Part shown: positions 3,200-29,550 of the stretch, piece after piece
Layout: each line of letters begins with the position of its first letter
Numbering within the stretch: the stretch's first letter is position 1
Origin: a virus
Length of the DNA: 30,497 nucleotides
Virus record (IMG/VR): IMGVR_UViG_3300030118_000662
Location: 1 to 30,497 of that record
Strand: one strand, 5' to 3'
Notes under the pieces: generated by a model
Database searches by the model: none
What the model was told of the DNA's origin: nothing
The model's input: only the letters and a program-made list of their open reading frames with translations
Program-made: the position numbers and the translations under genes

Positions 3200-3523
3200 T
3201 TATTCCTCCAATAAAGTTGTTTCGTTTACAGTTTTAAGTGTATCTATACTGTTAAGTGTATCTCTTGGCACTTCTATTGGCATACCTATTCTAGTACACA
3301 ATTCATTTCTAAATGATTCGACAGCAGCACCAGACATTCTTGTATTTTGTGAATTTTCAATTAATAACATAGGCAACCAAGCTACTGCACATGCCCATTC
3401 TTCGATCTGTTTACCTGATTGTGGGTTAGTTCCTTGAACTTTAGTAAACCAAGCACATTGTAAACCTATACAGGTTTTACCCATTAATGGACAAATATCT
3501 CCGTTTTCAACTTTAATAGTCAT
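3200..3523 (-). CDS. Conserved phage protein with Cys cluster
   Basis: This 107-residue protein has four cysteines in its first half (D-I-C-P-L, K-T-C-I-G, Q-C-A-W-F, W-A-C-A-V) within CPLMGKTCIGLQCAWF and EEWACAVAWLPMLLIEN. The spacing would allow a small metal or Fe-S site. The second half (NTRMSGAAVESFRNEL) is predicted helical. I recall very similar small proteins near tail genes in many marine phages, with no assigned function. It starts in a TAATG overlap with the fibre gene upstream, and an AAGGA Shine-Dalgarno is visible. Metal binding is inferred from cysteine spacing only. Confidence 0.65.
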   Translation of the reverse strand: MTIKVENGDICPLMGKTCIGLQCAWFTKVQGTNPQSGKQIEEWACAVAWLPMLLIENSQNTRMSGAAVESFRNELCTRIGMPIEVPRDTLNSIDTLKTVNETTLLEE

Positions 3524-5139
3524 TAGTCCTTTTCTGCAATTATAACGTCTAAATATTTTATGGCCAAATTTATAGATGTACCGCTAAATGTATGATTATG
3601 TGCTGACCCTGTATAAGTATGGTTGTGTGACGAGCCTGTAAAACTATGACTATGAGCATTTATTGAGTGGCTATGTGCAGAACCAGAAAAAGAGTGTGCG
3701 TGATCGTCAATCGTGTGAGAGTGATTTGAACCACTATAACTATGGCTGTGTGCTGAACCTGTGAAGCTATGACTGTGTACGTTTATTGTGTGGCTGTGAT
3801 TACCAATAGTGTGAGCGTGAGAAGATTGGCTTATTCCATGATTGTGAGCCTGTGTACTTCCAGTTGTACCCATAACATTAGAGTTAATTGTTCTGTTTCT
3901 ACCTCTATCTGTTGTTCTTGGTGCTTGGTGGTTGTCATTAAATGGAAAGCCTTGAGATTCGTGTGAGTTTTGGTCACTGTTAGTCGTTAAAATAGAGTGC
4001 CTGTGATTAGGCATACGACCTGTACTTAAAGTATGGTTATTAACACCAATTGCTATGCTATTGCTATTTGTACTCTGAGAAGTGTTGTTAGTATTATTAC
4101 CTCCGTTTGCTATAGAACCTCCCTGAGTTGCGTTAGCAATAGAAATATTAGTGATTGTTGTTGAATTAGTATTATTTCCGTCATCTCCTACTGTTCCACC
4201 TTGTGTAGAGTTGTTTGTATTATTACCACCATTAGCAATAGACCCTCCTTGTGTCGTAGAAGAAATCGAGCCACTTTGTGTTGTATTAGAAATAGAACCA
4301 GAAACACCTCTGTTTGCAAGAGCTGTTGTAAAATCCACAGAGCCACCAGAACTTGCTGATCCAGAGACTACACGCAATGCTCTTTCGTTTGTATCAGTTG
4401 TGTCTTTAGTCCAACCTGTAGGTGCAGACGTTTGTTGAAATAACATACGAGTGCCCGAAGGAAATGCAGTTGCAGCTCCACTAGTAATGTAACCAGCACC
4501 ATTGGTAAGTTGATTATTATTTGTGACGTTAGTTGCTGAAGCTGCTATGCCATTAAGTTTTGATAACAAAGCATCCGTAAAAGCGTTTGTGTTGCTGTTT
4601 GCTTCGTAGGCAGTTTTTATTTCTGAATTACTTTGATCTGCGGTTGCATTAGCTTCAATGCCATTAAGTTTTGTATGATCTGCGTCTGTAAATACGTTGC
4701 TATCACTGGCACTTTCAACTAAAGTTCTTATCTCTGACGCTGTTTGATCTGCTGTAGCTCCATCTTCTACATTTAGAATAGTTTGTGCTTCAGAACGAGT
4801 TAAAAATTGTACATCGCCAGTTCCAGAAAGAACACGACCTAAAATTCTATTTGGTAATATTTGCGCTAATTTTGAACTAGATACTGCATTATTAGCAATT
4901 TTATCTGTTGTTATAGCGTTGTTATCAATAGTAAAAGTTGCACCGCTATTGCTGACAGTTATATCTCCTTTATCTCCATCACTAACACCAGCAGCAGCAC
5001 CTATTTCTTGAATAGAACCATTGTCTTTTTTTGTAAATAATTGACCTGTATCTGTTCGTACTGCTACTTCTCCTGCTACTAAATCACTGGCACTGGGGTC
5101 GCTTCCTGACCCGTTTTTTAGCTTGATTTGATTAGCCAT
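3523..5139 (-). CDS. Tail fibre / receptor-binding protein with HxH needle
   Basis: This 538-residue fibre begins with a short beta domain (IKLKNGSGSDPSASDLVAGE, then AVRTDTGQLFTKKD) like the N-terminal domain of phage tropism determinants. A helical Asn/Thr/Ala-rich shaft follows with repeated DGATADQ, EANATADQ and TDALLSKLNGI segments. A collar-like motif appears at about 230-250 (MLFQQTSAPTGWTKDTTD). Residues about 270-355 are Gly/Ser/Asn/Thr repeats (GGSIANGGNNTNN occurs twice). Residues 432-516 carry eleven HxH motifs, and a short cap (INLAIKYLDVIIAEKD) ends the chain. The cap and collar are typical of T4 gp12 or gp37-like tips, so this is probably a distal host-recognition fibre. It is preceded by a strong Shine-Dalgarno in a hairpin loop. 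Confidence 0.85.
   Translation of the reverse strand: MANQIKLKNGSGSDPSASDLVAGEVAVRTDTGQLFTKKDNGSIQEIGAAAGVSDGDKGDITVSNSGATFTIDNNAITTDKIANNAVSSSKLAQILPNRILGRVLSGTGDVQFLTRSEAQTILNVEDGATADQTASEIRTLVESASDSNVFTDADHTKLNGIEANATADQSNSEIKTAYEANSNTNAFTDALLSKLNGIAASATNVTNNNQLTNGAGYITSGAATAFPSGTRMLFQQTSAPTGWTKDTTDTNERALRVVSGSASSGGSVDFTTALANRGVSGSISNTTQSGSISSTTQGGSIANGGNNTNNSTQGGTVGDDGNNTNSTTITNISIANATQGGSIANGGNNTNNTSQSTNSNSIAIGVNNHTLSTGRMPNHRHSILTTNSDQNSHESQGFPFNDNHQAPRTTDRGRNRTINSNVMGTTGSTQAHNHGISQSSHAHTIGNHSHTINVHSHSFTGSAHSHSYSGSNHSHTIDDHAHSFSGSAHSHSINAHSHSFTGSSHNHTYTGSAHNHTFSGTSINLAIKYLDVIIAEKD
3592..3846 (-). repeat. Array of eleven HxH-encoding repeats
   Basis: Residues 432-516 of the fibre contain eleven His-x-His motifs (x is Ser, Ala or Asn) separated by either 4 or 6 residues, with spacers of the types TINV, TIDD, SINA, SFTGSA, SYSGSN and TYTGSA. 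In the T4 gp37 tip, HxH motifs from three chains each coordinate an iron ion along the needle axis; that is established for T4. The pattern seen here would allow eleven stacked sites in a trimer. The DNA copies are similar but not identical, so length change by recombination is possible. Confidence 0.85.
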
Positions 5140-5140
5140 G

Positions 5141-5160
5141 AGCTATAACCTCCTATAGCT
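5141..5160 (-). promoter_or_regulatory. Shine-Dalgarno presented in a hairpin loop
   Basis: On the minus strand AGCTATA and TATAGCT form a perfect 7-bp inverted repeat around the 6-base loop GGAGGT, which is a full Shine-Dalgarno. It lies between the TAA of the upstream fibre gene, which overlaps the stem by one base, and the ATG at 5139. The start codon is one base after the stem. The hairpin would hold the ribosome-binding sequence exposed in its loop. It could instead be incidental; the stem is AT-rich. Confidence 0.6.
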
Positions 5161-6779
5161 TAGTAGGTGCCACCATTAACATCAAAATTGCTAGTACTGC
5201 CATCTTCTAAAAAAGTAACTAAATCAGAGAGAGCTACTTGTTTCATTGTGCCATTGTCATTAATTACCATGCGATCTGCAGTGGCTAAAGTTGTTGATGT
5301 GGCAGAGGTGTTTCCATCTACAATATTTAATTCTGCAGTAGTAGATGTAATTCCGTCTAGTACATTTATTTCAGTAGCAGTTGATGTAACTCCGTCTAAA
5401 ATATTTAGCTCTGCAGTTGTTGATGTAACTCCATCTAACAAATTTAATTCAGCAGTGGTTAATGTTGCTCCATCTAGTATTGCTACTTCTGTTCCTGTTA
5501 AATCAGCTAAGGCACTAGCTGTACCACTAGACATTGTTGCAAGTTCTGTTAATTCAGAATCTAATGGTTGTTTATTGTCTAATTGTGTTTGTATCGCAGA
5601 AGTAACACCGTCAACGTAATTTAATTCTGCAGTAGATAACGTTGCACCATCTAATATCTGAACTTCTGCAGCTGTTAAATCAGCTAAACTATTAGCTGTT
5701 GTCTGAGCCATTGTAGATAGCTCTGTTAATTTATCTGTATGTGGTTCTACATCTGTTCCAATAACTAATCCAAGATTTGTTCTGGCACCTGATGCAGAGG
5801 TACTTCCTGTACCTCCATCAGATACAGCTAAAGTTCCTGTTATAGAACTTGCTCCTAAATCAACCGCAAGTTCTGTTGATTCTATAACTACACCACCATT
5901 AGATTTTAAATCTAAAGAAAGTGTGTTTCCAGACTTATCTAAACCATCTCCTGCAATAATTTGACCAGCACCAGAAAACTGTGCAAAAGTTAAATTATTT
6001 GTGCCAACAACAGCAGACCCTTTGTTATTAGTGCAAACAAATCCATTTTCAGCATTAACAGTTCCCTGTTCTACAAATACAAAAGCACCAGCTGCATCTG
6101 CACCAGTATCTAAATCGTCAACTCTTGTAGGTGCACCAGAAGAATTAACTTTATAAATTCCATTTTCAGTTGCAGTATTTTGATTTTTAATTAATATCCT
6201 GTCATTTGTTGATAGAGTTATTCCATCAATTGTTTGTCCATTTGCAAATGCAGAAGATAATGTACCATTGGCTGTAGTTGTAGCCACAACAGAATCTTTA
6301 ACATCTAAACCTTGAGCTACACCATCTACATATCCTTTGTTAGCAGCATCTGCATCTGCAGTTGGGTCTGCCAAGCCTGTAATCTTTTGTGAATTAAGAC
6401 TTACAGCACCATTTGGAGCAGTTAATTCATTTAATCTATTTGTTCTTACACCGGTATCAAAATCAGATATTTTTGTATGAGCTATTGAGGGTATATCAGC
6501 AGCAACTAAACTTCTAAATGTAGGTGCTGCTGCACTTCCTGTTGTTGGACCACTTAATATTGTATTCGCATTTCTAGTGTCTGTTTTATTAAAGAAAGCT
6601 CCTGCACCACCAACAGTAATTATTGAACTTGCTGAAGGTGGGGTTGAACCATTATCCCCAAAACCATAATATAATTTTAAATCAGCTTCATTAAATGCTA
6701 ATTCAGAGGGAGATAAACTAGATGGTGCACCAGCCGAGCCACTTGCAGCTCTTTTTTTAATTCTTATAGTGTTTGACAT
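5160..6779 (-). CDS. Tail fibre protein with tandem AELN-LDG repeats
   Basis: This 539-residue fibre starts with RIKKRAASGSAGAPSSLSPS and ELAFNEADLKLYYGFGDNG, a tropism-determinant-like N-terminal domain that probably attaches it to the tail. The middle (about 120-270) has segments of the kind KITGLADPTADADAANKGYV and DRILIKNQNTATENGIYKV, known from phage fibres. A GTLAVSDGGTGSTSASGART motif follows. The C-terminal third has paired TELxTMxxxTAxxLADLT units and tandem 13-residue AELN-LDG repeats, which should form a trimeric beta shaft. The end is DVNGGTY. It lacks an obvious chaperone or tip domain, so it may be a proximal or shaft component that pairs with the next gene. Its 3' end resembles that of the 75-residue gene upstream. 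Confidence 0.8.
   Translation of the reverse strand: MSNTIRIKKRAASGSAGAPSSLSPSELAFNEADLKLYYGFGDNGSTPPSASSIITVGGAGAFFNKTDTRNANTILSGPTTGSAAAPTFRSLVAADIPSIAHTKISDFDTGVRTNRLNELTAPNGAVSLNSQKITGLADPTADADAANKGYVDGVAQGLDVKDSVVATTTANGTLSSAFANGQTIDGITLSTNDRILIKNQNTATENGIYKVNSSGAPTRVDDLDTGADAAGAFVFVEQGTVNAENGFVCTNNKGSAVVGTNNLTFAQFSGAGQIIAGDGLDKSGNTLSLDLKSNGGVVIESTELAVDLGASSITGTLAVSDGGTGSTSASGARTNLGLVIGTDVEPHTDKLTELSTMAQTTANSLADLTAAEVQILDGATLSTAELNYVDGVTSAIQTQLDNKQPLDSELTELATMSSGTASALADLTGTEVAILDGATLTTAELNLLDGVTSTTAELNILDGVTSTATEINVLDGITSTTAELNIVDGNTSATSTTLATADRMVINDNGTMKQVALSDLVTFLEDGSTSNFDVNGGTY
5304..5459 (-). repeat. Four tandem 39-base units (13-residue AELN-LDG repeats)
   Basis: Residues 441-492 of the fibre consist of four contiguous 13-residue units of consensus T-T-A-E-L-N-x-L-D-G-V-T-S. 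A further related copy (STAELNYVDGVTS) and two GTEVAILDGATL-like segments lie just upstream. The DNA units are 39 bases and well conserved, which makes this a likely site of unit gain or loss and of assembly collapse. Confidence 0.85.
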
Positions 6780-7386: not shown

Positions 7387-9006
7387 CTATTTTGCTTCTA
7401 ATGCTTCTACTCTTGTAATAAGTTCCTGCAAAGCGGCTACTGTTACAGTTACTAATTTTGATGAATCAAGTTGTTGATAAATTGGGTCATCTTTTTTCAT
7501 GCCTGCAGCATCATTATCTTCTGGTTGTACTGCATCTTTTTCTCCAATAACTGCTTCAGGACAAACTTCAGCAACTTCATGTGCTAAAAATCCATCATAA
7601 GTAACGTAAGATTCAGGACTGTCTGTTTTAGCTTGTATAAAATTATATCTTTTTGGCTTAAGTTTTTTTAATCTATCAATAGCACCAGTTAAATCAACAA
7701 TATTTTCTTTAAGCCTATAATCAGATTCTCCTGCAATAACAATACCTGAACCATCAGATTGTATTCTTATACTGCCTTGTTCACTACCATTTTTACGGAA
7801 AGTTATCATCTGTCCACCATTACTATTGGTATTCAAACTCATTGTTGTATTGGCATTATGTCTACTTACATGAATACAATGTGCATCTTCTATAGATACA
7901 CCAGCAACATTATTACTGCTATTAAATCCGGGAATATCTGTTGAGTCTTGATTAATTCTAAATGCACCTGTACTTCTTATTGTCATTCGTACAGTATTTG
8001 ACCCACCATTAGGTTGTGTGGCAAACGTTAATTTTCCTGCTGTATCTCCCTCTGTATCTCTTTTTGCAAAAATATGAGCAATGTCATTTGAACCATTATT
8101 AGCATCAAAACCACCCACAATTTCACCAGCACTCACAGTGCCAGTATTTCTAAAAGAAATAAATGGCTTTCCAAAAGTACCTGAACTATCATTACCGACA
8201 ATTTGTACTACTGCATCTCCAACTGCTGCAACATTCTGTTTACCCATTAAGATTTTTCCTGCACCAGACAATGTCATTATTGAATTACTATCGTTTCTAA
8301 ATGATATTTGATCTGGCGAACTTGATCTTGAACCACCATTTAACTGAATATTTCCACCCAATGCTGAACCAGAGCCACCTGAAATATTTAACTGTGATGT
8401 ATTATTTTCTCTAAAAATTTGAGATATTCCATTCATTGTAGTGACACTAGAGTTTGTTCCCAAGTCTGATCTAGTTAATAAAGTACTTGTAACGTGTGGA
8501 ATAGTAATAGTTCTTGCACCAGCACCACCAGCTGGTGTAGCTTGTTGTAGATTTAATGTCCCATTAGAGTGGGCAAATTGTACAGTATTACCACTATTAA
8601 GCAATAATCCACTTGTATTTACTGTTGCTCGTCTTGTACCATTTACAGTGAAATCAATAGTGGTTGTAGATGCTTCTGAATAAAGTCCTGTATCGGAATC
8701 TCCAAAGCTCATTGCTGGTGCAGAAGCGGATTGGCTAGTTCTTTCTAAAGAAAGCAGACCTGTCATAGTAGTACCGCCTGCATTCATAAAACCTAAGTTT
8801 GATTGTGTTATATCTCCAATTGTTGTTATGCCATTACTTGCCTTTATTTTTAAGTTATTACCATCAAGAAACATAGTTCCTGTAGTTGCATAAGATGGTG
8901 TACCTGAACCACTATTAGTTGATAGGACTGCAGCAAATACAGCATTTAAGTCTCCTAAGACCTGAGCACCTGTACCATCATCAATCGTATAATCTTGTCT
9001 TGCCAT
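7387..9006 (-). CDS. Tail fibre with C-terminal S74 self-cleaving chaperone
   Basis: This 539-residue fibre has an N-terminal attachment region (MARQDYTIDDGTGAQVLGD), a beta-rich shaft with GLYSEASTTTIDFTVNGTRR-like segments, and a C-terminal intramolecular chaperone of the S74 endosialidase type at about 428-539. The signature is SDYRLKENI, then AIDRLKKLKPKRYNF, then the DGFLAHEVAEVCPEAV segment, ending in a coiled coil (LQELITRVEALEAK). In that family the chaperone trimerises the fibre and then cuts itself off just before the conserved serine, which here is Ser428. The mature fibre would be about 427 residues. The gene lies directly downstream of the tail-tip gene J, so it is a good candidate for a central or side tail fibre. 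Confidence 0.85.
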   Translation of the reverse strand: MARQDYTIDDGTGAQVLGDLNAVFAAVLSTNSGSGTPSYATTGTMFLDGNNLKIKASNGITTIGDITQSNLGFMNAGGTTMTGLLSLERTSQSASAPAMSFGDSDTGLYSEASTTTIDFTVNGTRRATVNTSGLLLNSGNTVQFAHSNGTLNLQQATPAGGAGARTITIPHVTSTLLTRSDLGTNSSVTTMNGISQIFRENNTSQLNISGGSGSALGGNIQLNGGSRSSSPDQISFRNDSNSIMTLSGAGKILMGKQNVAAVGDAVVQIVGNDSSGTFGKPFISFRNTGTVSAGEIVGGFDANNGSNDIAHIFAKRDTEGDTAGKLTFATQPNGGSNTVRMTIRSTGAFRINQDSTDIPGFNSSNNVAGVSIEDAHCIHVSRHNANTTMSLNTNSNGGQMITFRKNGSEQGSIRIQSDGSGIVIAGESDYRLKENIVDLTGAIDRLKKLKPKRYNFIQAKTDSPESYVTYDGFLAHEVAEVCPEAVIGEKDAVQPEDNDAAGMKKDDPIYQQLDSSKLVTVTVAALQELITRVEALEAK

Positions 9007-14753: not shown

Positions 14754-15124
14754 GGTTCAAATACCTCTCTGAATGTTGCATTTATGGTAGCTCTATTGTT
14801 ATATGGTATTGTTTTACTCCACTGCTCACATACAACTTTTCTAGTTACACTTTCTCCTTCAGGAGCAAAGTTAAAACTAGATGCATTTCTATGTTGTAAG
14901 TCTAAGAAATCTTCTATTTTTTGAGCATCATCCTTAGATTTTTCAAATCGCAAAGTATATACTTTTGGATTTTGATTTTGCGGTAATCCAAAAACTACTC
15001 TCTGCTCAAACCCATCTGCAAAACGTGTAACTCTTGTTAATGGTGCAGATGTTTTCTGCATACCATAAGAGGCTTTAGTTCCCCCTGCTGAAGTTCCAAC
15101 ATCTAAATCATTAAATGTAGCCAT
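14750..15124 (-). CDS. M: Minor tail protein M
   Basis: This 124-residue protein fits the Phage_min_tail family (lambda gpM): TRVTRFADGFEQRVVFGLPQ, then KVYTLRFEKSKDDAQKIEDF, then a short C-terminal end (ATINATFREVFEP). The order tape measure, M, L, K, I, J matches lambda. gpM and gpL together form the tail tip platform. It starts in a TAATG overlap with the tape measure and ends in an ATGA overlap with L. Confidence 0.87.
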   Translation of the reverse strand: MATFNDLDVGTSAGGTKASYGMQKTSAPLTRVTRFADGFEQRVVFGLPQNQNPKVYTLRFEKSKDDAQKIEDFLDLQHRNASSFNFAPEGESVTRKVVCEQWSKTIPYNNRATINATFREVFEP

Positions 15125-16809
15125 TATGCAAGTAATCCTCCGGGTCTTTTTTGTTGTATTAATTCTGATTGTATAGCAACAGATAAAGCTCTTCCAAGTT
15201 CTCTACCACCTGATTCATCTCCTTCAACAGCAGAACCACTTGCATCTACATTTACAACTATATTAGTAGTCATTCCACCTAATTTATTATTTGGAATAAT
15301 TGTTCCAGCAGTACTAGGAACAAACAACTCTGGTCCTTTTTCTCCGACAATAGATGCTTTACCTACAGGTGGTCTACCTCCATTTGCAAAGCCGGGAAGG
15401 TTTGCAAATATTCCAAGTCCTGTACTTTTAAGCAATGTGTTTATACCCATTCTTAAAAGGCTGTTTGCTAAATCATTTATTATATTTTTTGCGGCTTCTC
15501 CTAATGCCATTGTGCCATTTATTGCTCCAACTAAAGCATCAGATATTTGAGAACCAATTGTATCTCCTATCTCAGCAAACGAATCTGCAATAGTTTTTGT
15601 TTTATTATTCATAGTGTCTAATTTATTATTTGTATCTCCAAGAATTTTATTTATTTCTTTATTTTTTTGTGCTTCTTTTACTAAAGCATTTGTTTTATCC
15701 TCTGTCACTTCAAAGTTTTTTTGTTTTAGTTTTTCTGTTTCAATATTTTGTTTTGTAAGTTCTTTTGTTTGTTCTTTTAAAAATTTATTAGCTTCTTTAT
15801 TTCCAAACAAACCAAGTTTTACATCATCCCCAAATTTTAATTTTGTAAGTCTAAGTGCATCATCTCTTGCTTGATTTTCTGCAGTTATAACATTGCTGAA
15901 ACCAATTTTACCAATATTTTGAAATCGTTTAAAAACTCTATCAATTGCTTGAACTGCTTTTGTTGTTTGGTCTAATACAAATTTAATTGTTGGTCCTAAT
16001 ATTTCACCAACAGTTCTTGCTAATGTTTGTACTGAATCAACAAGGGTAGATAATTTACCATTTAAAGTTGTAGCTTGTTTCGTTGCACCACCAAAAAATG
16101 CACCACCTTCACTTGTAAGATTAATTAATGCCTGATTAACGAGTTCAGCACCAATTTTTCCTTTACGCATTGCTGATTCAAATTCTTCTCCTTGCAAACC
16201 TGTTATTTTTTTAAGTTCAGTAGTAATGTCTACTCCTCTTTCTAATAACTGTAGTTCTTCTTCTCTCTGTAATTTACCCTTTGCTCTTATCTGTCCAAAA
16301 GCTAATGCAATGCCTTGAAGGTCTGCACCTGTTGCTCCTGCAACATTAGCTAATCTTTTTGTTGTATCAACTAATTCATCTGTTTCAAAACCAAAAGCTT
16401 TTAATCTTTTGGTTTGTTCAATTAATTCACTACTTGTAAATGGTGTTACAGCACCAAAATCTTGTATTTCTTTTATTATCGTGTTTGTTTTGCTAAGTGA
16501 ACCAGTTAAAACTTCTAAACTTTTTCTTTGTGTTTCAAGTTCTGCAGTTTGCACAAAAACAAATCTTGCTGTAGCAGCAATTGCTAATGCTTTTAATAAA
16601 GGTGCAATTGATCTTGTAAATGTTTTTACACCTCCTGCAGCACCTCTTGCAGCATTACCACTATTTCTAAATGATCGACTTGATCTATCTAATCTATTTT
16701 TTAATTTATCAGTATTATTAGATAATGTTTTTGTAATTGCATTAGTTTTATTTAATGAACTAATAGCATTTTGTGCATTAACTATTAATTCAACTGTCGA
16801 ACGAGCCAC
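15124..16809 (-). CDS. Tail tape measure protein
   Basis: The protein is 561 residues from a GTG start at 16809. The N-terminal part is helical and basic. Around residues 70-230 lies the tape-measure domain (SLEVLTGSLSKTNTIIKEI, FTSSELIEQTKRLKAFGFE, NVAGATGADLQGIALAFGQI, GKLQREEELQLLERGVDI). A Lys/Glu/Asn-rich coiled coil follows. The C-terminal end (FANGGRPPVGKASIVGEKGP, then ELFVPSTAGTIIPNNKLGG) is the usual tape-measure tail. This is short for the family; by the known scale of about 0.15 nm per residue it would set a tail of roughly 80-85 nm. It follows the G/GT chaperones, as in lambda (G-T-H). Confidence 0.93.
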   Translation of the reverse strand: MARSTVELIVNAQNAISSLNKTNAITKTLSNNTDKLKNRLDRSSRSFRNSGNAARGAAGGVKTFTRSIAPLLKALAIAATARFVFVQTAELETQRKSLEVLTGSLSKTNTIIKEIQDFGAVTPFTSSELIEQTKRLKAFGFETDELVDTTKRLANVAGATGADLQGIALAFGQIRAKGKLQREEELQLLERGVDITTELKKITGLQGEEFESAMRKGKIGAELVNQALINLTSEGGAFFGGATKQATTLNGKLSTLVDSVQTLARTVGEILGPTIKFVLDQTTKAVQAIDRVFKRFQNIGKIGFSNVITAENQARDDALRLTKLKFGDDVKLGLFGNKEANKFLKEQTKELTKQNIETEKLKQKNFEVTEDKTNALVKEAQKNKEINKILGDTNNKLDTMNNKTKTIADSFAEIGDTIGSQISDALVGAINGTMALGEAAKNIINDLANSLLRMGINTLLKSTGLGIFANLPGFANGGRPPVGKASIVGEKGPELFVPSTAGTIIPNNKLGGMTTNIVVNVDASGSAVEGDESGGRELGRALSVAIQSELIQQKRPGGLLA

Positions 16810-16833: not shown

Positions 16834-17363
16834 TTACCTTGTTTTATGTTTTTGACGATTTATTTCTTGTTTTTCTCTTTCATTTTTAACGTCAAAATAC
16901 GCTGCCCAGAATACTAACTCTTCTTCTGTAATAGATTTTCTTAATTCTTGTAATGTTTTACCAAGTTTTGCTGCGAGAAAAAACTCAAAATTGAGCCAAT
17001 GATCTCGCTTTATTAGTTTTTTGCTGGTGTTACATCAATATTTATATTCATCATAAATAATTCCAGATCATTTAAAACTGTTTCTGGCAAAAATCTTTTT
17101 AAATTTTCTGCATCTGCAGAAGCAAAAGCTTTTGTTCCATCTTCATTTTGGGCTAATTGACATAATAATCTTGTTGAAACTGCAAGAGCTTCATCTGTAC
17201 CAGTTGCAGCTTGTGCTTGTATTCTGTCGTATCTAGTTAATGGTGGAAAATATATATCCTTTAAATGAGTGCCATCAGGGTTTTTTAATTCAAACTTTCT
17301 TCTTTCATGCATTACAGATTCATATGCTTCTGTAATGAGGTCAACGGTTCTTTTTGCTGGCAT
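16834..17363 (-). CDS. GT: GT tail assembly chaperone (-1 frameshift product)
   Basis: The G frame (17363-17013) is joined by a -1 ribosomal frameshift at the A-AAA-AAC site (17016-17022) to a second open frame ending with TAA at 16834-16836. After the shift the sequence reads LIKRDHWLNFEFFLAAK, then LGKTLQELRKSITEEELVFW, AAYFDVKNEREK, QEINRQKHKTR: 60 extra residues for a total of 176. The E-E-L-V-F-W-A-A-Y-F segment is the usual T-domain pattern. This second frame has no convincing start codon of its own. In lambda GT recruits the tail tube protein to the G-coated tape measure. The shift is inferred from sequence. Confidence 0.85.
17013..17363 (-). CDS. G: Tail assembly chaperone G
   Basis: This 116-residue protein begins MPAKRTVDLITEAYESVMHE and includes LKDIYFPPLTRYDRIQAQA and RFLPETVLNDLELFMMNINI. 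The length and placing between major tail protein and tape measure fit lambda gpG. It ends in TPAKN, where the last two sense codons are part of the frameshift site, so the zero-frame product and the 176-residue GT form share the first 116 residues. gpG coats the tape measure during tail assembly and is not in the virion. A six-base-pair hairpin precedes the start. Confidence 0.85.
   Translation of the reverse strand: MPAKRTVDLITEAYESVMHERRKFELKNPDGTHLKDIYFPPLTRYDRIQAQAATGTDEALAVSTRLLCQLAQNEDGTKAFASADAENLKRFLPETVLNDLELFMMNINIDVTPAKN
17016..17022 (-). promoter_or_regulatory. A-AAA-AAC -1 frameshift site
   Basis: On the minus strand the last codons of G read GCA AAA AAC TAA, which contains the classic heptamer A-AAA-AAC in the correct zero-frame phase, directly before the stop. 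Slipping back one base re-pairs the two tRNAs on AAA AAA and opens the 60-residue T frame. The stop codon immediately 3' of the heptamer is a feature that often raises shifting efficiency. No strong downstream stem was confirmed by eye. Confidence 0.85.
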
Positions 17364-17391: not shown

Positions 17392-17808
17392 CTATACAGT
17401 TGAGTTAATGGTACCAGTAGTAATAAACGTAATGGCTATTTCCTCTATCTCTCCCATTGTGGCCGAATGCTCTGCATTTGTAATAATAACTGATGCTGCA
17501 ATTTTCTTTGCAGCTGTATCTCTATCTGGAAACAGCTCAATCAAACCATCTCCATTATCTCCTGTTGCAAGAGCATCATCAATAAATGCTTGATAATCAC
17601 TATTGCCTGAAGCATTATAGAGAACTGTTGCTCCACCTTCTCCTGAAATCTGACCTCCAACAAATGTTTTAAATGTGTCTCCCATGACAGTTGTTTCTTG
17701 TGTATCTTTTGTTATAGAAAGATTCCATGCTCTGAGATCACTGACAATAGCTTCAGTTCCACCAGCATTATTAAACATTAGTTTGCCAACATCTCCCTTG
17801 GTAGCCAT
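17392..17808 (-). CDS. Major tail tube protein
   Basis: This 138-residue protein (MATKGDVGKLMFNNAGGTEA, LRAWNLSITKDTQETTVMGD, FKTFVGGQISGEGGATVLYN, ending IAITFITTGTINSTV) has the pattern of short siphovirus tail tube proteins, rich in beta and without the extra Ig domain seen in lambda gpV. Its place between the tail terminator and the G/GT chaperones is exactly where the tube gene belongs. It should form stacked hexameric rings. A hairpin follows it. Confidence 0.85.
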   Translation of the reverse strand: MATKGDVGKLMFNNAGGTEAIVSDLRAWNLSITKDTQETTVMGDTFKTFVGGQISGEGGATVLYNASGNSDYQAFIDDALATGDNGDGLIELFPDRDTAAKKIAASVIITNAEHSATMGEIEEIAITFITTGTINSTV

Positions 17809-27365: not shown

Positions 27366-28244
27366 TTATTCAAAAAGTCTTTTTAGTTCTTTTGAACCAC
27401 TTTTTGGTTGTTTCAGTTGAACTAATCGTAATCCATAATTATCTGTTTTTTGTAAATTTTCCCAATCTATATCTTTTCTTCTTATTAATTGTGTATCAAA
27501 TTTTTGCCAATTATTTTGAATATGATGTTGTGGTCTTTGAAATTTTCTTGTAGTTTCTACAACCTTTGGCCACATTTTTTCTAAACTTCTTGCCATAGTT
27601 AAACGACCATCTCCTTTATAAAGCTGGTCAGTATTACCTCCTTTCATTGTCATTGTGTGCATTTTTTCTATTAAAAATGCATTAAAATTAACAGTGCAAT
27701 ATCCTAATGCAAGTGCTTGTAAACACAAGTCAGTATCTTCGTTATATCTACCACGCCATCTTATATCCAATGAATTATCAATTAACAATGTGGAATATAC
27801 ATGAGCATTTAACTGAAATGGAGGTTGGTTTCGTTTAATAGCAAACGAAACGTAATTTAATCCTGCAATAGCAATATTTGTATATCTATTTGTAAAATCT
27901 TCGCAGCATCTTAAACCAATATTGCCATTAACACGGATACGAGTGTTTTTGTATTTTCTATGAATACTGCGTATATTATCATCCATTATCCAATGTCTTT
28001 TTGCTCCAATTGATTTGCTATGTTCCCAAACAAAATTACGAACAGGAATAGAGCCTTGTCCTAAATTTTTAAATGGTGTAGTAATTATTATTGACGGGTC
28101 GTAATGTTTGGCATATTTATCAAATTCTTGTGGTTCTATAACAAGTTTAAAGTTAACTTTGTCTTTTAATAAAAAGTTAGCTGTCAGGCAAGTATCAGCT
28201 CTGCCTTTTGATATTACATAAACAGGATATTTAGGCTTCTTCAT
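27366..28244 (-). CDS. TET-associated-type glycosyltransferase (TAGT), likely DNA base modification
   Basis: I start at ATG 28244, which has AGGTGG just upstream; an ATG at 28262 would add six residues. The 292-residue product has a GT-A-like fold with YPVYVISKGRADTCLT, VIEPQEFDKYAKHYDP, a metal-site motif HWIMDDN (Asp88, Asp89) and the distinctive RYNEDTDLCLQALALGYCT block (about 167-185), then MHTMTMKGGNTDQLY. This set matches the glycosyltransferases associated with phage TET/JBP base hydroxylases (TAGT). They transfer sugars to hydroxymethylated cytosine. No TET gene is seen within the window. The protein is next to the terminase and a ParB-like gene, a setting described for hypermodification loci. 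I am confident of the family, less so of substrate. Confidence 0.8.
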   Translation of the reverse strand: MKKPKYPVYVISKGRADTCLTANFLLKDKVNFKLVIEPQEFDKYAKHYDPSIIITTPFKNLGQGSIPVRNFVWEHSKSIGAKRHWIMDDNIRSIHRKYKNTRIRVNGNIGLRCCEDFTNRYTNIAIAGLNYVSFAIKRNQPPFQLNAHVYSTLLIDNSLDIRWRGRYNEDTDLCLQALALGYCTVNFNAFLIEKMHTMTMKGGNTDQLYKGDGRLTMARSLEKMWPKVVETTRKFQRPQHHIQNNWQKFDTQLIRRKDIDWENLQKTDNYGLRLVQLKQPKSGSKELKRLFE

Positions 28245-29550
28245 CTTCCACCTCAAATCCAACAGATGTCATATCTCTTCTTTCTTTTTCAGGAAACCAT
28301 ACGGATTCAGATGCCTTTTCTTTAAACTCAAATCCATTTTGTTCACAGAATGTTTTTTTATCTTCATATGATTCAAAATTAACTACTAGCTTTTTAGGGT
28401 CGTCAGATATTTCAAAATCTGGCATACCAATCCATTCTGCAGCATGATCTGTAGATTTAATTTCTGATGCTGGTCTTGTTACATACAACAAGTTCTGCAA
28501 CATCATTTCATCATAGCCGGTACCTAAGAGATCACTTTTTTCCATGATCTCTTTAAGAATATTAGATAAAGCACGATCATCTACCTCGCCTAAATGCGAA
28601 ACTTCATTATCGGCTGTTAGTAACTTAACAGCCTCAATACTATCTGATTCTAAATCTAATTTCAACACAGGCACAGAAGAAAGTCCTAAAGATTGTGCAG
28701 CTTTTACCACTCCATGTCCTGCAAGTATTGTATTATCATTGGCTACAATTACATTTCTGTATATTCCATTATCAGTAATACTTTGTTTTAAATGTTCTAG
28801 TTGGTCTGCAGGATGGGCTTTATAGTTTTTAGGATGTGGTTTTAAATCAGACACAGGCATTTGTCTAATTGTGTAAAAAGAAAATGTATTAAAGTCTAGT
28901 AAGTCAACAATATCTTGATGTAAATCATCAAGATTGGATATAGCACCCAACTCTTCAAGAACTTTGTTTTCATCCCATTCAGACTGTTCTGCAATTTTAT
29001 TATCAGCAATTACATAAGCTTTTTTTTGTTCATCAGTTAAATTTTCTACTATTCTTATGGGCACGTCATCAATTTGCATTTGCTTTGCAGCTTCATATCT
29101 ACCATGGCCAGAAAGAATAGTTTTTTCTTCATCACAAATTATTGGTTGTGTAAAACCAAATTGTTTAATTGACGCAATAATATTTTTGATTTGTTTATCT
29201 GGATGAATTTTTGAATTATTTTTGTATGGTTTTAATTCAGTTAAAGCACATTCTGTTGAAATCACAGCTCCTAAATCCTCCTTGCGTTTTTGCATTTTTT
29301 TAATGTATTTATTATTCATGTCGACATATTTTTCGTCAACATGAAATGCTATTGGGTCAGCGTACCAAGCCTTGATATGTTCTTTGCATCTGACTTTAGC
29401 TCTTTCTAATGTTCCACCAGCATCTTGTAATAACGAATATGATTTTTTACCGTCAGGCCATTTTGTGTGATGTGTCCATTGATGGTCAGAATCAAATTCA
29501 AAAGTATACAGAAGACCATTAAATTCAACATCAAAAACTGAAGCTCCCAT
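28231..29550 (-). CDS. Protein with two ParB/Srx-like domains
   Basis: This 439-residue protein has an N-terminal region of unknown fold (1-95), a first ParB-like domain at about 98-215 (PYKNNSKIHPDKQIKNIIAS, then ILSGHGRYEAAKQM, GHGR at 148-151), a second at about 226-330 (HPKNYKAHPADQLEHLKQSI, then ILAGHGVVKAAQSL, GHGV at 278-281) and a C-terminal domain (WIGMPDFE, then VNFESYEDKKTFCEQ and SVWFPEKERR). In the family the G-x-G-R arginine is part of the active site; it is kept in domain one and replaced by Val in domain two. Similar phage proteins occur beside DNA modification genes. It starts at the UXS stop (TAATG) and overlaps the glycosyltransferase by 14 bases. Confidence 0.82.
   Translation of the reverse strand: MGASVFDVEFNGLLYTFEFDSDHQWTHHTKWPDGKKSYSLLQDAGGTLERAKVRCKEHIKAWYADPIAFHVDEKYVDMNNKYIKKMQKRKEDLGAVISTECALTELKPYKNNSKIHPDKQIKNIIASIKQFGFTQPIICDEEKTILSGHGRYEAAKQMQIDDVPIRIVENLTDEQKKAYVIADNKIAEQSEWDENKVLEELGAISNLDDLHQDIVDLLDFNTFSFYTIRQMPVSDLKPHPKNYKAHPADQLEHLKQSITDNGIYRNVIVANDNTILAGHGVVKAAQSLGLSSVPVLKLDLESDSIEAVKLLTADNEVSHLGEVDDRALSNILKEIMEKSDLLGTGYDEMMLQNLLYVTRPASEIKSTDHAAEWIGMPDFEISDDPKKLVVNFESYEDKKTFCEQNGFEFKEKASESVWFPEKERRDMTSVGFEVEDEEA

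Follow-up and report, generated by a model that had tools for sequence, protein, structure and literature searches.

Programmed -1 frameshifting in the gene for the tail assembly chaperone is textbook knowledge for tailed phages, as set out in the available part of one report (PMC5009743; Xu, Hendrix and Duda 2004 as described there). According to the same available text, λ requires the frameshift product GT at a low level, 30:1 (PMC5009743). The heptamer A_AAA_AAC is found at this same gene in several other viruses. In the available parts of the respective papers, it is reported for Caulobacter phage phiCbK (PMC3556154), for haloarchaeal virus HCTV-2 (PMC5009743) and, next to the stop codon, for Acinetobacter phage Loki (PMC5313236). 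For Dragolir, the assignment of A_AAA_AAC is tentative (PMC6003738).

The locus studied here lies in a window of 30,497 nucleotides, which is the whole stretch of viral DNA that we analysed (positions 1 to 30,497 of IMG/VR virus record IMGVR_UViG_3300030118_000662). The feature is encoded on the minus strand, which a preliminary description of this DNA had left unsaid, and its parts and neighbors are collected in Table 1. The last codons of G read GCA AAA AAC TAA, which places the heptamer in the 0-frame register, as tandem -1 slippage requires. Between 17034 and 16837 the -1 frame has no stop, and AUA and AUU are the only codons in it that might serve as starts. Slippage is predicted to add 60 residues, LIKRDHWLNFEFFLAAKLGKTLQELRKSITEEELVFWAAYFDVKNEREKQEINRQKHKTR, to the 116 residues of G, giving a product of 176 residues. 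The preliminary description had given the coordinates and the motif, had put the heptamer in phase and directly 5' of the G stop (17015-17013), and had described the 60-residue extension as having no start of its own. The coordinates and the motif are right, the phase and the position of the heptamer are confirmed, and no ATG, GTG or TTG occurs in the -1 frame across 17034-16837. The preliminary description had also stated that gene callers miss the extension, and related genomes agree with this. In MED4-184, P-HS2, KBS-S-2A and CRP-823 this place is left unannotated, S-H1 has a fragment only, and T is annotated as an extension of G in none of the MED4-184, P-HS2, S-H1 and KBS-S-2A records.

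Table 1. Coordinates of the predicted frameshift feature and of the adjacent tail genes in the window
Feature	Position	Strand	Basis or remark
Major tail protein, next gene upstream	17392..17808	-	phrog_10528, 9e-29
Gene G, 0-frame product of 116 aa, predicted tail assembly chaperone	17013..17363	-	ORF; ATG 17363 to TAA 17013
Slippery heptamer A_AAA_AAC	17016..17022	-	in phase with G; kept in relatives; frozen synonymous choice
G stop codon	17013..17015	-	distance from the heptamer varies among relatives
Hairpin, probable frameshift stimulator	16973..17008	-	-15 kcal/mol; frozen codons; re-paired arms
T extension, -1 frame, 60 residues and TAA 16836-16834	16834..17016	-	no ATG/GTG/TTG; dN/dS
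Tape measure protein, 561 aa, next gene downstream	15124..16809	-	phrog_9959, E 5e-33; Pfam TMP_3, 4e-21

G and T are placed between the genes for the major tail protein and the tape measure protein, like λ G/GT. G matches phrog_20784 (E 2e-26), a family of unknown function, and T matches two families labelled 'tail protein', phrog_337 (E 5e-6) and phrog_14766 (1e-5). T also aligns with gp69' of Bcep176, which is annotated as a joined 'lambda T equivalent', at 39% over 41 aa with a weak E of 0.08. Pfam Phage_TAC_13 was matched by one relative (0.004). For λ G and T themselves, the searches used gave no significant sequence similarity and weak family matches only. A PDB sequence search with the G profile returned nothing relevant, and the AlphaFold model of G (pLDDT 59) was too poor for a fold search. 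Rfam and tRNA scans of the window gave no matches.

The terminase of this phage is 71-73% identical, and the capsid protein 67-76% identical, to those of MED4-184, P-HS2 and MED4-117, which are Prochlorococcus phages, and of S-H1 and KBS-S-2A, which are Synechococcus phages. Because of this identity to cyanobacterial siphophages, the host is probably a marine picocyanobacterium, and the phage is most likely a siphophage of picocyanobacteria. Elsewhere in the window, the ORF at 28231-29550 encodes a protein that matches ParB-like and DNA methyltransferase families, and it adjoins an ORF at 27366-28262 that matches the beta-glucosyl-HMC-alpha-glucosyltransferase family. These neighbors hint at DNA modification. 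In addition, three ORFs of 538-539 aa (3523-5139, 5160-6779 and 7387-9006) have tail-fibre or decoration family matches, with no detectable similarity among the three despite their near-equal length.

The 34 ORFs of this 34% GC window contain 31 in-phase A_AAA_AAN sites, and the heptamer was therefore rejected as evidence by itself. The site at 17022-17016 is the only one of the 31 that carries a protein past its stop (58 codons). G contains another A_AAA_AAC, at codon 27, but there the -1 reading hits a stop after one codon, and this site was rejected as well. Since the heptamer alone is not rare in the window, it is conservation across relatives that makes the observation real. A comparison of the -1 frame in relatives had been named as a check in the preliminary description, and it was run in two ways. 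A scan of viral contigs with G gave 80 relatives that were kept, and a second scan with the T alignment gave 80 loci with 54 new distinct sequences, some contigs being common to both scans. An in-phase A_AAA_AAC or A_AAA_AAA together with the -1 extension is present in all 80 relatives of the G scan, in one of which the extension is cut off by the contig end. The same combination of motif and frame is found in all 80 loci of the T scan, and neither the frame nor an in-phase motif of this kind is lost in either set (160/160 over the two overlapping scans).

The choice among synonymous codons at this site is frozen. In the G-scan set including the window, the slip motif is A_AAA_AAC in 55 of 81 sequences and A_AAA_AAA in 26 of 81. 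A_AAA_AAT and A_AAA_AAG are absent at the slip site across the relatives, though AAT and AAG are common elsewhere in G; in the rest of the gene, Asn is encoded by AAT 280 times vs 115 times by AAC, and AAG accounts for 111 of 486 Lys codons. At the slip site, the synonymous codons are ACA in 39/39, GCA in 67/67, AAA in 68/68 and AAC in 46/46. The reading frames were also compared by dN/dS, computed on 68 distinct sequences. The -1 frame (T) has a dN/dS of 0.19 and G one of 0.13, while the T region read in the other two frames gives 0.91 and 1.80 and contains about six stops per frame. The -1 frame is protein-coding and under purifying selection. These values also count against a single G-T gene that was split in this record by mutation or by an assembly error. 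Homopolymer errors do occur, and nothing more specific favors such a split; the same frame relation recurs in well over 150 separately fetched contigs and in cultured phage genomes, which leaves the chance of a split gene close to nil. In a distant relative, Marine virus AG-345-A17 (L085, 2122-2671), the T-like frame lies at +1 (or -2) with respect to G, which would reflect a different type of frameshift or an error in the sequence.

The preliminary description had pointed to the stop codon beside the heptamer, and most relatives do not share this arrangement. Heptamer and stop are adjacent in only 3 of 81 sequences (the window, L025 and L075), and elsewhere the stop comes 1 or 7 codons later. 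The adjacency of heptamer and stop is incidental and lies outside the conserved signal. The shifting stop also bears on whether T might be a separate protein, made without frameshifting by termination and reinitiation at a non-AUG codon, the AUA beside the G stop. Coupled reinitiation is common in phage operons, and in the window an AUA codon does overlap the G stop region. However, the -1 frame lacks the usual start codons ATG, GTG and TTG, no start is conserved among the relatives, and the stop moves between 0, 1 and 7 codons while the slip site stays. Reinitiation would further leave the frozen heptamer and the hairpin at fixed spacing without a role. We consider it very unlikely.

The hairpin, which had been missed in the preliminary description, starts exactly 7 nt 3' of the heptamer. 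Its outer stem pairs GCGAGA (17008-17003) with UCUCGC (16978-16973), and its inner stem pairs 16997-16992 with 16987-16982. The predicted energy corresponds to a z of -3.0, and 1 of 200 dinucleotide shuffles was equally good. The rules given for bacterial stimulators are a hairpin of 17-140 nt that starts 4-10 nt after the motif, with a G-C first pair, at least 3 more pairs and at least 7.6 kcal/mol (PMC4066793). The hairpin here lies within these rules, having a 7 nt spacing, a G-C pair followed by 5 pairs, a length of 36 nt and a predicted energy of -15 kcal/mol.

The codons that form the arms are constrained as well. In the 3' arm, Leu is encoded by CTC in 68/68 sequences, whereas this codon accounts for 5 of the 406 other Leu codons of T and for 25 of the 1000 in G. 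Near it, the Glu codon is GAG in 68/68, vs 105 of 565 elsewhere in T. The Arg codon of the 5' arm and the opposite codon at the Phe position occur as CGA/TTT (57), AGA/TTA (7) or AGA/TTG (4), with no mixture, and in the AGA/TTA-TTG combination the pairing is moved by two bases to give an 11-bp stem. Where the 5' arm carries GGG (Gly), Leu is encoded throughout by CTA or CTT and never by CTC. S-H1 and KBS-S-2A have other arms, which are still complementary, 7 nt after A_AAA_AAC, and the structures predicted downstream are weaker in the CRP phages. In a single fixed register, the covariation analysis found no pair changed on both sides. Independent contrasts, on a tree made without the trait's own columns, number only 2-3; all of them are in the predicted direction and they are not significant. 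The support for the hairpin comes from the frozen codons and from the differences in register or between clades. Read in this way from the sequences, the hairpin is a probable frameshift stimulator.

A sister clade of Prochlorococcus phages replaces the slip heptamer with A_AAG_GAA (MED4-184 (L083), 2839-2854, and L167-L246). The clade that includes MED4-184 is one supported group on the tree, and NNA_AAG_GAA followed by one codon and then TAA is seen in 79/79 readable loci. T keeps the same -1 relation to G, and the hairpin lies at about the same position, where it is re-paired with CTT or CTA as the Leu codon instead of CTC. Among four-base slip motifs, A_AAG performs best in E. coli (PMC4066793). 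A limited literature search turned up no paper in which AAAGGAA is called a slippery site; judged by its class name, the 'threetwotwo' motif class proposed in PRFect would seem to include it. We infer that the MED4-184 clade slips at A_AAG_GAA. Compensating codon changes re-pair the hairpin while the motifs, the non-canonical A_AAG_GAA and A_AAA_AAC/A_AAA_AAA, differ between clades. We lean towards the view that the hairpin is the constant part and the slip motif the exchangeable part of one phage family's signal. A_AAA_AAG, which is efficient in E. coli, is never used in the sequences compared here.

The same clade is informative about slippage by RNA polymerase on the A run, with one A inserted in some of the transcripts. 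The heptamer of the window contains six consecutive As, and one extra A would lead to the same frame, but six As make a short run for a slipping polymerase. In the sister clade just AAA stands before GG at this place, and the frame relation is still kept; the hairpin is located at the distance expected of a ribosome stimulator. Polymerase slippage is extremely improbable as the source of T.

In the preliminary description, the locus was read as a -1 frameshift of the λ G/GT type. Conservation of the site, purifying selection on the -1 frame, synteny and the conserved hairpin all support this reading, and we hold genuine -1 programmed frameshifting in this tail-assembly chaperone gene to be very probable on comparative sequence evidence. 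In our model, most ribosomes would read G and stop. In a minority, tRNA-Lys and tRNA-Asn would be on A_AAA_AAC when the ribosome meets the hairpin 7 nt downstream, and a tandem -1 slip there would yield the 176-residue GT besides G. By analogy with λ, the tape measure protein may be coated by many copies of G and few of GT, with the T segment serving to recruit the major tail protein so that polymerisation starts. We infer the slippage, its rate and the chaperone roles. A_AAA_AAC is described as inefficient in E. coli, where A_AAA_AAG is among the strongest motifs (PMC4066793), and the host here is probably cyanobacterial. A weak slip site would be compatible with a low, λ-like level of GT.

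These results restore T, a tail-assembly protein that is probably essential and that annotation omits in a group of marine cyanobacterial siphophages, including several cultured genomes. In addition, the relatives provide well over a hundred natural variants, with three slip motifs, the stop at 0, 1 or 7 codons and varied hairpin registers. This set would allow a direct test of the parts that set frameshifting efficiency on cyanobacterial ribosomes.

Among the closest known systems are MED4-184, P-HS2, MED4-117, S-H1 and KBS-S-2A, which share the G-T layout of this phage and whose terminase and capsid are homologous to its own. MED4-184, S-H1 and KBS-S-2A also have a hairpin at about the same spacing; S-H1 and KBS-S-2A carry A_AAA_AAC as here, and the MED4-184 group carries A_AAG_GAA. 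In Roseobacter phages CRP-823, CRP-811 and CRP-406 (L086, L250 and L251), A_AAA_AAC TAA ends a chaperone or hypothetical gene, and the -1 extension is unannotated. In Moraxella phage Mcat9 (L249, ~683-760), the G-like gene ends with A_AAA_AAC TAA, a hairpin of -23 kcal/mol follows after 8 nt, and T is annotated as a separate tail protein. The window thus resembles Mcat9 in having A_AAA_AAC directly beside the stop and a strong hairpin (8 nt downstream in Mcat9). phiCbK, Loki, HCTV-2 and Mcat9 belong to other phage groups than this phage. A hairpin is predicted here, whereas the available parts of the phiCbK, Loki and HCTV-2 papers describe none for those sites. Like λ G/GT, the locus consists of a short gene ahead of the tape measure gene, with a -1 frameshift close to the 3' end of that gene and a short C-terminal extension that lacks a start of its own; as in λ, the major tail protein comes first, followed by G, T and the tape measure protein. 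Unlike λ, the locus has A_AAA_AAC as the slip site and the stop beside the heptamer. The preliminary description had called this a variant solution. The site does differ from G_GGA_AAG of λ, but the variant is not new, as A_AAA_AAC is known from phiCbK, Loki and HCTV-2. The locus is a well-supported new example of a known phage frameshift, and not a new kind.
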